Assembly (NCBI RefSeq): GCF_900606115.1
Contig: NZ_UWPJ01000005.1
Span: 248,001 to 312,000 of the forward strand
Length of the DNA stretch: 64,000 nucleotides
Origin: Pigmentiphaga humi
Lineage (GTDB): Bacteria; Pseudomonadota; Gammaproteobacteria; Burkholderiales; Burkholderiaceae_B
Reading direction: 5' to 3'
Numbering within the stretch: the stretch's first letter is position 1; every line of letters begins with the position of its first letter. Under the pieces are notes generated by a model. That model did no database searches. It was not told the DNA's origin and saw nothing but the letters and a program-made list of their open reading frames with translations. This document shows, piece by piece, positions 26,877-48,927 of the stretch. A program made the translations under genes and the position numbers.

Positions 26877-27014
26877 TAGATCCAACGTGCTTCGTCGGCT
26901 CGAACTGTTCTGCGGGTTCAACGCGGCCGTTATGCAACATATACGAATGTTTTTGCGGCGCTGCGCGGCCTGAGCGGGCGGCAAGCGCGGTGCAGCGTGC
27001 TAGAGTAGCCGCCG

Positions 27015-27330
27015 AGTCGGTGCTTGACAGTTAAACGGGAAACAGGAGGACCCTTTCAAGGGATCTAACCTGTGCTGCCCCCGCAACGGTAAGCCTCCGT
27101 CGCCGCCGGTAGTCCCCCGGACGCCGCCGCGACAGCCGCATCGATCCCACTGTGCCTGGTCCGCCGCATCCTCCGGCGGGCTTGCGCATGGGAAGGGGAT
27201 GCGGCCATGGATGCCAGCCCGGATACCGGCCGGCTCGATGGTCCTTCCGGACCAACCATGGGGGAAGCGCCGCGGCGGGCGGCGAACCAAGATTTCGAGC
27301 CTGGACGGCATGCGCGCGGCGCATGCCGGT
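27015..27330 (+). ncRNA. cobalamin riboswitch upstream of btuB
   Basis: The hallmark segments of the B12 element are in order. A GGTGC-like start is followed by AAACGGGAAACAGG near 27031, a CCTTTCAAGGG hairpin, and the core GCTGCCCCCGCAACGGTAAGCC at 27072-27093. A B12-box-like GAGCCTGGACGGCATGC near 27297 follows. It ends about 65 bp before the btuB start. Adenosylcobalamin binding is expected to shut down btuB-btuF expression. The 3' boundary is approximate. Confidence 0.85.
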
Positions 27331-43112: not shown

Positions 43113-45245
43113 TCAGTCTTTCTTTAGCAGGGACTTCAACCTGTCCAGCCTTTCCTTGGCGCTCAGCCCCGGCGTGGCATCGGCCACGCGGTCGTCTTCC
43201 AGCCCCATTTCCTTGATGAAGCGCGAGGGCTCGCGGGCGATTTCCTCACGGCCGCGCTTGCGCTTCTTGCACCAAGTGACGTTGAGGGTGCGCCGGGCGC
43301 GCGTGATGCCGACGTACATGAGACGGCGCTCTTCCTGCACGCGCGCCTCGATGGATTCGGCGGCTTTTTCGGGATCGCCTTGCTCGTCGTCCTTGCCCAG
43401 GTGCGGAAGCAGCCCCTCTTCGGTGCCGACCAGGAATACGTGCGGATATTCCAGGCCCTTGGAAGCATGCAGCGTGGACAGGCGCACGAGGTCGGGGTCT
43501 TCGTCGTCGCTCTTTTCGAGCATGGTGATGAGCGCGATGTGCTGGACCAGCGCCATCAGCGTCATGTCGTCTTCGTCGGCCTTGCGCTTGAGCCAGCCCA
43601 GCAGGTCGAGCACGGTCTGCCATCGGCTCTGCGCGCCGCGCTCGTCGAAGTGGTCGTAGAGGTAGTTCTCGTAGTTGATCGCGCGCACCAGGTCGTCGAG
43701 GATTTCGCCGGCGCTCTCGCCGCTCGCGGCGCCTTCGCCCTTGGCCGCCCCGGCGCGCCATTGCATGCGGTTGATGAATTCGCAGAACTCGCGCAACGGG
43801 CCGAGCTGGCGCGGCTGCAGGCGCTGTTCCAGGCCGGTCTCGAACACGGCGGCGAACAGCGGGATCTCGCGCTCGCCGGCATAGGTGCCGAGCGCTTCCA
43901 GCGTGCTCTGCCCCACGCCGCGCTTGGGCGTGGTGATGGCGCGGATGAAGGCGGGATCGTCTTCGTCGTTGGCGATCAGGCGCAGGTAGGCCATGATGTC
44001 GCGCACCTCGGCCTTGTCGAAGAAGCTCTGGCCGCCCGAGACCATGTACGGGATCTTGAGGTTGCGCAGCGCCTGCTCGATCATGCGCGCCTGGTGGTTG
44101 CTGCGGTACAGGATGGCGAAGTCGCGCCAGTCAGCCTTGAGCTCGAAGCGCGCGGCGGAGATCCGCATGGAGACGGATTCGGCCTCGGCTTCTTCATCGT
44201 CCATGGGAATGACGCCGATGGGGTCGCCCACGCCGAGATCGGACCACAGCTTCTTGTCGAACAGCTTGGGATTGTGGCCGATCACGCTGTTGGCCGCCGC
44301 CAGGATGCGCTGCATCGAGCGGTAATTCTGCTCGAGCTTGACGACCCGCAGGTTCGGATAATCGGTGGTCAGCTTGGCCAGGTTCTCGATGGTGGCGCCG
44401 CGCCAGGCATAAATGGCCTGGTCGTCGTCGCCCACCGCCGTGAACATCGCCCTCGGCCCGGTGAGCAGCTGCACCAGCCGGTACTGGCAGGCATTGGTGT
44501 CCTGGTATTCGTCCACCAGCAGGTAGCGCAGGCGCGACTGCCAGCGCTCGCGCGCCTCGGGATCGGATTCGAGCAGCCTGGCCGGGAGGCGGATCAGGTC
44601 GTCGAAATCCACCGACTGGTAGGCGCGCAGCGTGGCGTTGTAGCTGCGGTAGACGCGAGCCGCGTCGCGCTCGCTTTCCGTGGCCGCCAGGCGCTCGGCC
44701 TGGTCGGGCTCGACCAGCGCGTTCTTCCACAAGGAGATCGCGTTCTGTACGGCGCGGATGTGGCCTTTGTCCGTAGTTGCGACCAGATCCTGCACGATGC
44801 CCATGGCATCGTCGGCAGCGAGGATGGAAAACTGCGGCTTGAGTCCGACCTGCTTGGCTTCTTCGCGCAGCATCTTCACCCCCAGCGAGTGGAAGGTGCT
44901 GATGGTCAGCCCCTTGAGGGCATTGGGCGGAGCGATGGCCCCGACCCGCTCGGCCATCTCGCGCGCAGCTTTGTTGGTAAACGTGAGCGCGGCGACGTTG
45001 CGTGCGGAATAACCGCAATCACGCAGGAGATAGCCGATTTTCTGGGTGATGACGCGGGTCTTGCCGCTGCCCGCGCCGGCCAGCACCAGACACGGTCCAT
45101 CGAGATAGCGCACCGCCTCGCGCTGCGCCGGGTTCATGCCGGCGTCGAGCGGCGGCAGCGCCGCCGCCTGCCCGCGGGTCTTGTCGAGACGGGCCTCGGC
45201 GCGGTTCATGGCGCGATCGGTAGCGGAGGGGGAAGAAGCGGTCAT
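43113..45245 (-). CDS. rep: ATP-dependent DNA helicase Rep
   Basis: The 710-residue product is a superfamily 1A 3'-5' helicase. Walker A AGAGSGKTR is near residue 56; TFTNKAAREM, DEYQDTN, VGDDDQAIYAWRGA, KLEQNYRS and VYVGITRA-type motif VI are all present. The C-terminal CKKRKRGREE..PSRFI segment resembles Rep (CKERR..PSRFL) more than UvrD. Rep removes proteins ahead of forks and aids replication restart. A 35-residue Ala/Asp-rich N-terminal extension precedes the helicase core. The start overlaps the priA stop as TGATG. Confidence 0.87.
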   Translation of the reverse strand: MTASSPSATDRAMNRAEARLDKTRGQAAALPPLDAGMNPAQREAVRYLDGPCLVLAGAGSGKTRVITQKIGYLLRDCGYSARNVAALTFTNKAAREMAERVGAIAPPNALKGLTISTFHSLGVKMLREEAKQVGLKPQFSILAADDAMGIVQDLVATTDKGHIRAVQNAISLWKNALVEPDQAERLAATESERDAARVYRSYNATLRAYQSVDFDDLIRLPARLLESDPEARERWQSRLRYLLVDEYQDTNACQYRLVQLLTGPRAMFTAVGDDDQAIYAWRGATIENLAKLTTDYPNLRVVKLEQNYRSMQRILAAANSVIGHNPKLFDKKLWSDLGVGDPIGVIPMDDEEAEAESVSMRISAARFELKADWRDFAILYRSNHQARMIEQALRNLKIPYMVSGGQSFFDKAEVRDIMAYLRLIANDEDDPAFIRAITTPKRGVGQSTLEALGTYAGEREIPLFAAVFETGLEQRLQPRQLGPLREFCEFINRMQWRAGAAKGEGAASGESAGEILDDLVRAINYENYLYDHFDERGAQSRWQTVLDLLGWLKRKADEDDMTLMALVQHIALITMLEKSDDEDPDLVRLSTLHASKGLEYPHVFLVGTEEGLLPHLGKDDEQGDPEKAAESIEARVQEERRLMYVGITRARRTLNVTWCKKRKRGREEIAREPSRFIKEMGLEDDRVADATPGLSAKERLDRLKSLLKKD

Positions 45246-47476
45246 CAGATTTCCAGCGGGTCGACTTCCAGGTGCCAGCGCACCCGCGCCGCCGCCGGCA
45301 GGCGCGGCAGCGCGGCGGACCATGCCCGCAGGAAGGCCTGCAGGACGGGTCGGCTGTCGCTCTCGGCCAGCAGTTGGGCACGTTCGACATTGGCCACGCG
45401 CACCACGCGCAGCGGTACGGGATCATAGAGCGTAATCCGCGCCAAATCCGCGCATTGGGACAGATCCGTCCCACCGGCGAGGTCGGGACGCTCGGGCAGC
45501 GCGCGCGCCTGCGCCAGGAACTCCTGGGCCTGCGCCAGCTCGCGCGCCTCGGCGGTGAGCAGCGCCTGGAAAGCAAAAGGCGGCAGGCCCGCGGACTCGC
45601 GCTCGCGCAGCGCATAGCGGGCGAAACCGGCGTAATCGTGGCGGATCAGCGCCTGATAGAGCGGTTGTTCGGGATAGCCGGTCTGGATATAGACCTCGGC
45701 CGGCGTCCCCGCCCGGCCGGCCCGGCCCGCCACCTGCATCAGCTGCGCGAACAGCCGCTCCGGCGCGCGGAAATCGTGCGAGAACAGCATCGCGTCGGCA
45801 TTGAGCACGCCGACGAAGCCGAGATTCTGGAAATCGTGCCCTTTGGCCACCATCTGCGTGCCCACCAGGATATCGATCTCGCCGGCGTGCACACGCGCGA
45901 AGAGTTCCTGCGCGCTGCCCTTGCGCCGGGTGCTGTCGGCGTCGATGCGGGCCACGCGCGCTCCCGGAAACACTTCCGCCAAGTGTTCTTCCAGACGTTG
46001 CGTGCCCCGCCCCATGGGCTGCAGGTCCTGATTGCCGCAATCCGGGCAGGCGGCGGGGACGCGATGCTGCCAGCCGCAATGGTGGCAGCGCAGTTCATGG
46101 CGCGCCGCACCGCCGGGCGCGCCCGAGGCCTGGCGATGCAGCACCATATAGGCCGAGCAGCGCGTGCAGCCGCTCACCCAGCCGCAGGCGTCGCAATGCA
46201 GCACCGGCGCATAGCCGCGCCGGTTCAGGAAGATCAGGGATTGTTCGCCGCGCTCCAGGCGCTCGCCCACCGCCTTGAGCAATTGCGGCGCCAGCCCCTG
46301 CACGAGACGCTGGTTGCGGGTATCGAGCAGGCGGATGCGGGGCGGCGCCGAGGCCAATGCACGCTGGGGCAGGGATAACAGAAGATAGCGGCCGTTCTGC
46401 GCGTGATGCCAGCTTTCAAGCGAAGGCGTGGCCGACCCCAGCACAATGGGCACGTCGCGTTCGCGCGCCCGCCAGATCGCCAGGTCGCGGGCCGAATAGC
46501 GCAGCCCCTCTTGCTGCTTGTAGGACGGATCGTGCTCTTCATCGACGACGATCAAGCCCAGCGCCGGCAGGGGGGTAAACAGCGACAAGCGCGTGCCCAG
46601 CAGCACCCGGGCCTGGCCCCGTACCGCGCGCAGCCAGGCTTCCAGGCGCTCGCCGTCGGCCAATCCGCTGTGCAGCACCGCCACGCCGCCCGGGCCGGCA
46701 ATTGCCTCCAGGCGCCGGCGGAATACGCCTTCCAGCTGGGGAGTGAGGTTGATCTCGGGCACCAGCAGCATGACCTGGCGGCCTTGCTTGAGGACACGCT
46801 CGGCAGCGCGCAAATAGACTTCGGTCTTGCCGCTGCCCGTCACGCCATGCAGCAGCACGGGCTTGAATCCGGCCAGCCCGGCCAGGGCGTCGACAGCGGC
46901 CTCCTGGGCTTCGTTCAGTTGCGGCAGGACCGGCGCCAAGGCGGCGGAAGCATCGTCGGGCGAGCGGACCGCCGGATCCGGCATGTCTTCCCCCCCCTCC
47001 TCTTCCCGGCGCTTGCCACCGCGCCGGCTCGTCCTTGGCCGCGCCGCCTTGGCGGCGCGAGCGTCCAGGCGCGCCACCGGCCCGCCGGCCGACCGCGCCC
47101 CCTGATAGGAGGCGGGCTTGCGCAACGGGCCGGGCAGGGAAGGCAGCATCACCTCGCCCATGGGCCGCTGGTAATAATCCGCTGCAAAAGCGGCCAACTT
47201 CAGCCAATCCGCCGGGAAAGCGGGAAGATCGTCCAGCACTTGGATGACGTCCTTCACCTGCTCGGCAGCCACTGCGGGCACATCGGGCGTCTCCATGACG
47301 ATGCCGACCAGCTCGCGCCGTCCAAAAGGCACGATGACGCGCGCCCCCGGCTCGACGCGCCCGGGCACGCGATAGTCGAACAGGCCAGCCAAGGGCACGT
47401 CCAGCGCCACGCGCACCCACGTCGTGGGATCCTGCTCCGCCGGGGCGGCGTCGGACCTGGGCTGGTCTGTGGACAA
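45245..47476 (-). CDS. priA: primosomal protein N' (replication-restart helicase PriA)
   Basis: The 743-residue product has the PriA layout. The 3'-DNA-binding domain ends near 115, followed by a Lys/Arg-rich insertion at ~130-165. Walker A GVTGSGKTE is near residue 218 and DEEH lies in VVDEEHDPSYKQQ. The eight zinc cysteines are in CDACGWVSGCTRC and CHHCG...CPDCG, before the C-terminal helicase core. It reloads the replisome at stalled forks. The start codon is TTG at 47476, inside a DnaA-box-like sequence. It precedes rep with a 1-bp overlap. Confidence 0.9.
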   Translation of the reverse strand: MSTDQPRSDAAPAEQDPTTWVRVALDVPLAGLFDYRVPGRVEPGARVIVPFGRRELVGIVMETPDVPAVAAEQVKDVIQVLDDLPAFPADWLKLAAFAADYYQRPMGEVMLPSLPGPLRKPASYQGARSAGGPVARLDARAAKAARPRTSRRGGKRREEEGGEDMPDPAVRSPDDASAALAPVLPQLNEAQEAAVDALAGLAGFKPVLLHGVTGSGKTEVYLRAAERVLKQGRQVMLLVPEINLTPQLEGVFRRRLEAIAGPGGVAVLHSGLADGERLEAWLRAVRGQARVLLGTRLSLFTPLPALGLIVVDEEHDPSYKQQEGLRYSARDLAIWRARERDVPIVLGSATPSLESWHHAQNGRYLLLSLPQRALASAPPRIRLLDTRNQRLVQGLAPQLLKAVGERLERGEQSLIFLNRRGYAPVLHCDACGWVSGCTRCSAYMVLHRQASGAPGGAARHELRCHHCGWQHRVPAACPDCGNQDLQPMGRGTQRLEEHLAEVFPGARVARIDADSTRRKGSAQELFARVHAGEIDILVGTQMVAKGHDFQNLGFVGVLNADAMLFSHDFRAPERLFAQLMQVAGRAGRAGTPAEVYIQTGYPEQPLYQALIRHDYAGFARYALRERESAGLPPFAFQALLTAEARELAQAQEFLAQARALPERPDLAGGTDLSQCADLARITLYDPVPLRVVRVANVERAQLLAESDSRPVLQAFLRAWSAALPRLPAAARVRWHLEVDPLEI

Positions 47477-47774
47477 CTCACGAACTCCGTCTATGCGTCA
47501 CGGAACTCATCCGTGATGACTTAAAGTAAAACCTCTGAAAGCTTCCTAACCCCATTGCCCGGACAAGACTTTTCGCAGGCCTGGCCTCCTGTGGATAACT
47601 ATGGGGACAACAGGGGTACAAAGCCGGGGATAACTGAAAGCCATGGGAAGGAAAGTCGCTTCCTTCATTTGGGAATATCAGAAAACTCTTTTTAAATCAT
47701 GAGCTTATGAATATCCACGGAGTCTGTGGAAATAGGCGCTTTCGTTCCGGGCGAATGGCGCCGTATGTGCATAA
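47468..47774. other. DnaA-box-rich intergenic region between hemE and priA
   Basis: Within the 377-bp gap are a perfect DnaA box (TGTGGATAA, 47590-47598), a second matching the relaxed consensus (TGTGCATAA, 47766-47774), a one-mismatch TGTGGACAA at 47468-47476 and a near match around 47726. Between them lies an unusually A/T-rich stretch at 47670-47715 with CTTTTTAAATCATG. This could be an origin element, a DnaA-titration site, or DnaA control of priA-rep. It also must hold the priA promoter. Confidence 0.5.
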
Positions 47775-47853: not shown

Positions 47854-48927
47854 TCAGGCCTGCCGGCGCTGCGCGCGGCTGTGTTCATGCACAGTCTGCA
47901 CCAGCACTTCGACCGCCTCGGGCGGCGTGAACTGGGAGATCCCATGGCCCAGGTTGAAGACGTGGCCCGGCCCCGGACCGTAGCTATCCAGGGTACGGAC
48001 GACCTCGGCGCGGATCGCGTCCGGTCCGCCGAACAAGGCCATCGGGTCGAGATTGCCCTGCAGCGCCACGCGGCCGCCCACGGCGGCGCGCGCCTTGCCG
48101 AGATTGACGGTCCAGTCCAGCCCGACGGCGTCGCAGCCGCAAGCCGCGATATCTTCCAGCCACAGGCCTCCGCCCTTGGTGAAGACGATCACCGGCACCT
48201 GCCGGCCGTCGTGGTGGCGAACCAGTTTCTTCACCACTTGCCGGGTATAGTCCAGCGAGAACTGCTGGAACAACCCATCGGCCAGCACTCCGCCCCAGCT
48301 ATCGAAGATCATGGCGGCTTGGGCCCCTGCTTCGATCTGCGCGTTGAGGTAGGCCGCCACGGCCTCGGCATTGATCGACAAGATGCGGTGCATCAGGTCG
48401 GGCCGGCTGTACATCATGGACTTGACCGTGCGGTAATCGCTCGACCCCGCGCCTTCCACCATGTAACAGGCAAGCGTCCAGGGACTGCCGGAAAAACCGA
48501 TCAACGGCACCCGACCGTGCAGTTCGCGCCGGATCTGGGCAACGGCGGCGAACACGTAGTCCAGCTCGGCCATGTCGGGAACGGCCAGCGCGGCCACGTC
48601 CGCCTCGGTGCGCAATGGCCGGGCAAAGCGCGGCCCTTCGCCGGCGGCGAAATCCAGCCCCAGTCCCATGGCGTCGGGCACGGTCAGGATGTCGGAAAAC
48701 AGGATGGCGGCGTCCAGCGGATAGCGGTCCAGCGGCTGGAGCGTGACTTCGGTGGCGTAATCGGGATTCTTGGCCAGGCCGAGGAAAGACCCCGCGCGGG
48801 CACGCGTGGCGTTGTACTCGGGCAGGTAGCGGCCGGCCTGGCGCATGAGCCAGACGGGCGTGTAGTCCGTAGCTTCGCGCGCCAGCGCCCGCAGGAATAC
48901 GTCGTTTTTCAATATCGGCTGGGACAC
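47854..48927 (-). CDS. hemE: uroporphyrinogen decarboxylase
   Basis: The 357-residue product is close to the usual ~354. It converts uroporphyrinogen III to coproporphyrinogen III in haem synthesis. [14 protein letters not shown] is the substrate-binding signature near residue 25; the [15 protein letters not shown] loop with the catalytic Asp comes next, then [13 protein letters not shown], and NLGHGI near the end. The start is GTG at 48927 (VSQPILKND); upstream in-frame codons give a basic non-family extension. Confidence 0.92.

Follow-up and report, generated by a model that had tools for sequence, protein, structure and literature searches.

The minimal datA locus of E. coli consists of the strong DnaA boxes 2 and 3, the weak box 7 and one site for integration host factor (IHF). 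Its essential boxes point one way and their orientations and intervals are optimised (PMC5742627), and spacing matters on either side of the IHF site (PMC4585315). DnaA-box clusters of Bacillus subtilis and Streptomyces have been termed analogous to datA, and such regulation has been suggested to be conserved in most eubacteria (PMC5742627). The accessible parts of the cited texts, to which our statements from the literature refer throughout, describe conservation of the DnaA-reactivating sequences (DARS) in other proteobacteria and treat datA-type regulation as widespread in general terms only. Literature searches of mostly openly accessible texts, noisy because "datA" also matches "data", found no datA counterpart in betaproteobacteria. 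Here we describe a cluster of DnaA boxes between hemE and priA of Pigmentiphaga humi, in a stretch of 64,000 nucleotides (the window; positions 248001 to 312000 of contig 22 of the 5.12-Mb draft genome G000, the source genome). A sequence-only reading of this stretch had proposed a part of oriC, a DnaA reservoir or DnaA control of restart helicases. We conclude that the hemE-priA gap probably carries a datA-like control site that would inactivate or titrate DnaA. The reservoir came closest among the earlier proposals, in that the sites have the geometry of E. coli datA, by analogy with which a function is suggested.

Conserved parts and spacing of the hemE-priA module

The gap contains the following ordered set of sites, with distances given start to start:

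47590 to 47774, minus strand: datA-like module, in the order box A, 67 bp, IHF-type site, 97 bp, box B1, 12 bp, box B2
47766 to 47774, minus strand: putative DnaA box A, TTATGCACA, a perfect box
47696 to 47707, minus strand: putative IHF-type site TAAGCTCATGAT, one mismatch to YAANNNNYTGAW, 109 bp before B2
47602 to 47610, minus strand: putative weak DnaA box B1, TTGTCCCCA, exactly 12 bp before B2
47590 to 47598, minus strand: putative DnaA box B2, TTATCCACA, a perfect box

The three DnaA boxes of the sequence-only reading (TTATGCACA, TTATCCACA and, with one mismatch, TTGTCCACA) are indeed present, all on the minus strand; the IHF-type site and box B1 are further parts of the module that it had not listed. 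The source genome encodes IhfA (model TIGR00987, 148.1 bits against a cut-off of 120.25).

Loci for comparison were gathered by their HemE proteins (80 named loci, the best 80 of 518, and 30 further loci from genomes of the family). Of these 111 loci, counting that of the source genome, 96 were analysed and 15, minus-strand loci from the further family genomes, were left out; two pairs of gaps are identical (L039 and L120, L041 and L122), leaving 94 distinct ones. In every analysed locus, hemE was followed by priA and the gap contained at least one perfect box. A scan that allowed one mismatch in each of box A, the IHF-type site and B2, limited the distance from the IHF-type site to B2 to 108-111 bp, and scored B1 without requiring it, recovered the module in 84 of the 96 gaps (82 of the 94 distinct), compared with no recovery from any of 1920 dinucleotide shuffles or of the 96 reverse strands. 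B1 matches TTNTNCNCA with at most one mismatch in these 84 gaps. Chance clustering of sites was ruled out by the shuffle, reverse-strand and genome-wide controls. Two module units stand in tandem in 44 gaps and one unit in 40. The two-unit gaps belong to Massilia, Duganella, Herbaspirillum and similar genera, which we take to be Oxalobacteraceae, and to some other assemblies.

Conservation is concentrated in the module. In an alignment of 35 Alcaligenaceae gaps, the conserved islands are box A, TAAGnnnYTGATTT and TTTCCCCAAAGTTATCCACAGG, and the rest has diverged. A further set of 88 loci was picked (of 124) for having both strong boxes, with repeats included and the source genome counted twice, as itself and as L162. 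In 51 of the 88, B2 is preceded by a strict IHF-type motif at 106-112 bp; elsewhere between the boxes this motif occurs 5 times in total, and on the opposite strand 10 times, with at most 3 at any one offset. Three positions of the weak box, which stands exactly 12 bp before B2, are invariant in these loci, although this box was not selected for.

A perfect box A was searched for anywhere 25-130 bp before the IHF-type site in the hemE-priA set and in a class-level set, the latter picked by pattern, from the best listed matches or by eye, and so not a random sample. The hemE-priA set gave distances of 55-58 bp (39 counts), 66-69 bp (76) and 76-79 bp (9), with single cases at 94 and 112 bp (81 of 96 loci); the class-level set, whose search pattern allowed only about 60-82 bp where the first set had no such limit, gave 65-70 bp (24), 77-81 bp (26) and one at 125 bp (51 of 61 loci). 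Overall, the distances fall into bands at 55-58, 65-70 and 76-81 bp, one helical turn apart, with three outliers (94, 112 and 125 bp) and no distance at 59-64 or 71-75 bp in either set. The arm from the IHF-type site to B2 is nearly fixed, at 108-111 bp within the limits of the scan, with 109 and 110 bp commonest. As this distance is mostly 109-110 bp and B1 lies 12 bp before B2, the IHF-type site and B1 are about 97 bp apart. Steps of about one turn in a single arm suggest that protein and DNA form a loop, for which the side of the helix presented would matter.

Distribution of the module

In the 64-kb window, the only match to the module is the hemE-priA gap. The pattern TTWTNCACA occurs twice in the window, both times in this gap (0.44 expected; at least 2 copies in 5 of 100 shuffles). 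Enrichment of boxes throughout the genome was ruled out by counts of TTATNCACA over 5.12 Mb, which gave 18 perfect boxes against 26 for a reversed-pattern control; boxes are thus not enriched overall, and their clustering is the unusual feature. In a 364-kb sample of contig 22 with 45 boxes of at most one mismatch, three clusters stand out: the hemE-priA gap, a six-box cluster at 349364-349596 and the dnaA-dnaN spacer. The gap is the second-densest 500-bp cluster of this sample, with 4 boxes, one of them inside hemE.

A relaxed triple pattern gave exactly one match in 16 of 17 whole genomes, 14 of the 16 directly after hemE; genome G036 had no match, and the reversed control had none across the 17 genomes. 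In Paraburkholderia G124 and Massilia sp. 9I (G121), the match lies away from hemE. The hemE-priA gap of G124 has both boxes and no clear IHF-type site. Across 51 stretches of 20 kb (1.02 Mb from three genomes, taking in the dnaA and six-box clusters of the source genome), the only matches are at the hemE-priA gaps of G121 and of G075, an Alcaligenaceae genome in one contig. More widely, a box pair 169-193 bp apart was found in 197 of 300 order-level genomes and 100 of 135 genera, with one reversed match. In a phylum sample, a strict triple pattern matched 27 of 87 gammaproteobacterial genomes but just 1 of 212 from elsewhere (groups tallied by hand). The strict pattern was written after E. 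coli datA had been viewed, and because its spacing range was set to include datA, the enteric datA matches are a consistency check and not a blind discovery.

Modules outside the hemE-priA gap were observed in several lineages. In Burkholderiaceae, a second datA-like module stands behind a ComM/YifB-type gene (L222, by Pfam; L226 and L227, by eye). In Massilia sp. 9I, a further module precedes a UvrD/Rep-type helicase gene (L224; C7:2416367-2416550), about 1.2 Mb from hemE-priA. Genome G1050 (4.7 Mb, family f210) has three separate modules (L273, L274 and L275). In other gammaproteobacterial groups, the module follows an AroE-type gene (L187 and L188; Pfam for L187) or a HemW-like gene (L201 and L203, by eye), so that the gene context changes while the geometry stays.

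Surroundings of the module and rival roles

The genes and smaller features around the module are as follows:

45245 to 47476, minus strand: priA (primosomal helicase; Pfam), downstream neighbour, same direction as the module
47854 to 48924, minus strand: hemE (uroporphyrinogen decarboxylase; Pfam), upstream neighbour
47468 to 47476, minus strand: third box TTGTCCACA, one mismatch, overlapping the TTG start of the priA open reading frame
47519 to 47527, minus strand: ACTTTAAGT, 71 bp beyond B2 (start to start) and for the most part preserved across the aligned Alcaligenaceae gaps

The two genes lie in tandem with a gap of 377 bp, and Pfam bore out both gene calls of the sequence-only reading; HemE of the source genome is 88-90% identical to HemE of Pigmentiphaga and close relatives. 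The third box is shared with L035-L038 and L117 and was not found in L118 and L119, of the same genus, nor in the Bordetella and Achromobacter gaps examined. ACTTTAAGT is possibly a piece of the priA promoter. After it, upstream of priA, a short inverted repeat was seen by eye (TCACGGA...TCCGTGA; window 47500-47527, minus strand), and the corresponding place in L035 also has an inverted repeat, though with another sequence. The atp genes that had been taken as neighbours exist (at 59-63.7 kb, by eye from translations) but lie about 10 kb off, with other genes between. GC content is 46% across the module against 68% for the window, and the A/T-rich stretch noted earlier is present (32% GC at 47660-47719) but modest; 60-bp windows of lower GC occur at 20.7 and 43.0 kb. 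Rfam at gathering thresholds gave no RNA element at the module; a conserved RNA element in the gap was ruled out, as the only matches in the window, a tRNA and a cobalamin riboswitch, both lie elsewhere. The riboswitch is at window 27001-27248, plus strand (RF00174, 59.5 bits).

Several roles other than a datA-like one have to be considered. A part of oriC, or an alternative origin, would fit the presence of DnaA boxes, an IHF-type site and A/T-rich DNA together about 104 kb from dnaA, as well as the two tandem units in 44 of 96 gaps, with up to 13 boxes per gap. This proposal was not supported in the source genome, where the change in skew, dnaA and a denser box cluster all lie elsewhere. Along the sampled parts of contig 22, GC skew stays mostly below zero as far as about 350 kb, from where on it is mostly zero or positive, and the sign change lies 55-95 kb from the gap, near the two other box clusters. 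The gap, at 295.6 kb, is on the negative side, which includes slightly positive 10-kb windows at 258, 288 and 308 kb; since the local skew at the gap is near zero, the argument against oriC rests on the larger trend. Counts of FtsK orienting polar sequences (KOPS; GGGNAGGG), small at 0-6 sites per stretch, agree with the skew, with a minus-strand excess left of 350 kb. The dnaA gene is at 399.5-401.2 kb, and the dnaA-dnaN spacer holds three boxes (401196-401358). In box density the gap ranks second in the sample, and the six-box cluster is denser. That cluster, to the right of the window, packs six boxes, none with more than one mismatch and three being perfect TTATCCACA, into 233 bp and sits between aminotransferase-like and SIR2-like genes (by eye) near the change in GC skew; it is a possible oriC. 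In Pigmentiphaga kullae, four perfect boxes were seen in 190 bp (C1:952488-952677).

Other genomes gave a less uniform picture of the origin. In G075, each of the 7 stretches sampled between 1.70 and 2.09 Mb has negative skew, and of the 13 further on, 7 are positive and 6 negative. This puts the cumulative minimum of the sample near 2.09 Mb, beside dnaA (2.064 Mb) and some 0.4 Mb away from the module (2.487 Mb), which argues against an origin at the module. The KOPS of this genome disagree with its skew, leaning to the plus strand in nearly all sampled stretches on both sides of dnaA without a change over 1.70-2.82 Mb. In Massilia sp. 9I, skew and KOPS counts are both noisy; the KOPS bias changes somewhere from 3.2 to 3.56 Mb, not far from hemE (3.57 Mb), so that an origin role in Oxalobacteraceae is possible. 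The annotated E. coli oriC stretch has no module match. For chromosome 1 of B. cenocepacia, an origin region with dispersed DnaA boxes and an IHF site is described, its exact origin uncertain, and the accessible part of that text does not name hemE-priA (PMC4948915). Overall, we consider an origin role very improbable, and the weight that we leave to it reflects the contradiction between KOPS and skew in G075.

The main rival is control of priA, in which a cis-regulatory site that binds DnaA and IHF upstream of the gene would couple synthesis of this restart helicase to the replication cycle. In all 96 analysed gaps, priA is the next gene, in the same direction. Moreover, priA is present in 19 of 60 class-level loci, and 15 of 57 distinct class-level modules, two of them from the window's own order, have a priA start at most about 0.5 kb downstream, always in the same direction. 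The difference between 19 and 15 reflects removal of a repeat (L190 = L220), of L177, which lacks a module, and of L204 and L211, where priA is about 0.9 and 1.8 kb off; the priA starts were corrected, as the query lacked the first tenth or so of E. coli PriA. However, the same geometry occurs away from priA, at datA of E. coli and its relatives, behind the ComM/YifB-type gene (L222, L226 and L227), before the UvrD-type gene (L224) and at the three G1050 loci. These occurrences speak against control of priA as a complete account; we regard it as unlikely, and it deserves a test.

Two further rivals concern DnaA itself. The module could be a DARS-like site that reactivates DnaA by exchange of ADP for ATP. 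The E. coli stretches that we took to be DARS1 and DARS2 had no module match; the inverted boxes of DARS1 were visible, and the full DARS2 was unconfirmed in its stretch. DARS2 likewise uses DnaA boxes and IHF, and DARS-like sequences are described in many proteobacteria, betaproteobacteria included (PMC5742627, PMC10380432). In the three-box DARS core, however, box I runs opposite to boxes II and III (PMC5742627), and the module boxes all point in one direction. Because DARS cores have this inverted first box, a DARS-type role fits worse than a datA-like role, and we think it quite improbable. Alternatively, the boxes could act by passive titration of DnaA alone and have no catalytic effect on DnaA-ATP. 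Titration would be expected of strong boxes close to the origin, and DnaA is reported to be titrated on the E. coli chromosome (PMC12371093). For titration, however, boxes suffice, with no need for a fixed IHF spacing or one-turn bands, and titration as the sole role seems extremely improbable.

Comparison with datA and other known systems

The DNA itself shows the parts of the module, their directions and spacing and the one-turn bands, as well as the likeness to datA and a single match per genome in 16 of the 17. In E. coli K-12 (L175), TTATCCACA at 4392744 is followed after 65 bp by TAACCTATTGAT and after a further 97 bp by TTATTCACA, all on the same strand; an inverted box follows another 12 bp on. 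Judged by their place behind glyVXY and by their order, these sites would be datA boxes 2, 3 and 4 and the IHF site. TTGTAAACA, 12 bp before box 2, is probably datA box 7. In family f232, the strict pattern matched 5 of 11 phylum-sample genomes, with box distances of 161-163 bp, and the matches lie in the datA neighbourhood, four behind tRNA-Gly genes and the fifth before a QueG gene.

In the module as in datA, two strong DnaA boxes stand around one IHF site, all in the same direction; in the source genome, these are the predicted high-affinity boxes A and B2, both perfect, on either side of an IHF-type site with one mismatch. The distance from the IHF site to the nearer B-side box is 97 bp in both systems, and that from the first box to the IHF site is 65 bp in datA and 67 bp in the module. 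Both elements are intergenic and origin-proximal: the module is about 104 kb from dnaA, and hemE is about 0.04-0.74 Mb from dnaA in 21 genomes of the family, with dnaA as a stand-in for the origin and genome sizes rounded. The two systems differ in gene context (hemE-priA for the module, glyVXY-queG for datA), in the order of the strong and weak members of the far pair, which are swapped in the module, in the box A-IHF arm, which is about one turn shorter or longer in other module lineages, and in the tandem units of Oxalobacteraceae-type genera.

Several observations weigh against a datA-like role. The weak partner lies 12 bp before the B-side box in the module, where all 88 beta loci have a weak box with at most 3 mismatches (86 with at most 2), and before the A-side box in datA; a box of at most 3 mismatches 12 bp before box A was found in 0 of the 88, so that no counterpart of the essential box 7 stands in its datA position. 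In addition, the strong B-side box at 109 bp is direct in the module, and datA has the inverted box 4 there. Twelve of the 96 hemE-priA gaps, nine of Burkholderia type and three of Achromobacter, lack the module. The strict triple pattern matched only about a third of class-level genomes (123 of 369, with no reversed match), and it gave no match in the source genome in either the class-level or the phylum scan, because the IHF-type site there has one mismatch. Finally, a trans-acting role leaves unexplained the linkage to priA of 15 of the 57 distinct class-level modules.

We nevertheless favour a datA-like control site, for which the following mechanism may be proposed. DnaA-ATP would bind box A and the B1/B2 pair, and IHF would bind between them and bend the DNA, bringing the DnaA molecules from either side together head to tail. 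The resulting complex, by analogy with datA of E. coli, would stimulate hydrolysis of DnaA-bound ATP and tie DnaA up. Because it is origin-proximal, the site would double soon after initiation and could help to prevent a second start in the same cycle. Binding of DnaA and IHF, looping, ATP hydrolysis and an effect on timing are thus what we infer for the module.

Taken further, the data allow a joint reading that we consider evenly balanced between right and wrong. Inactivation of DnaA by an IHF-bent DnaA loop would be ancestral throughout the Gammaproteobacteria, taken as in GTDB with the betaproteobacteria inside the class. The hemE-priA or priA-linked module would be the older form, and E. 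coli datA a relocated and rebuilt version whose weak partner box now stands on the A side instead of the B side. In Oxalobacteraceae the unit would stand twice in tandem, and in Burkholderiaceae and Massilia a second copy would lie at a distance, with helical phase kept as the box A-IHF arm changed by whole turns. If so, control of the datA type may predate E. coli and reach beyond it, and it could be tested elsewhere, as the module provides exact addresses in hundreds of genomes. Half-turn changes in spacing are predicted to kill the module, and natural variants with one, two or separated copies would allow replication control to be compared. The module also suggests caution, since clusters of DnaA boxes near the origin may be control sites that can be mistaken for oriC.

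The module also shares features with other known elements. DARS1 and DARS2 are likewise non-coding DnaA-box elements, and DARS2 uses IHF; they differ in the inverted box I of their core and in the Fis sites of DARS2. E. coli oriC, with an IHF site in its left DnaA-oligomerising region, resembles the module in having DnaA boxes near an IHF site and A/T-rich DNA, but it lacks the module geometry, and in the source genome the chromosomal place of the module differs from the likely origin area. The oriC-proximal clusters of B. subtilis and Streptomyces, like the module, are DnaA-box clusters outside oriC, and they restrain initiation; no fixed IHF-centred geometry is described for them in the accessible texts, and B. 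subtilis is without IHF and datA (PMC13220808). The closest likeness is therefore to datA, and since one defining feature of datA, the position of box 7, differs, we name the hemE-priA module a datA-like variant and not a member.

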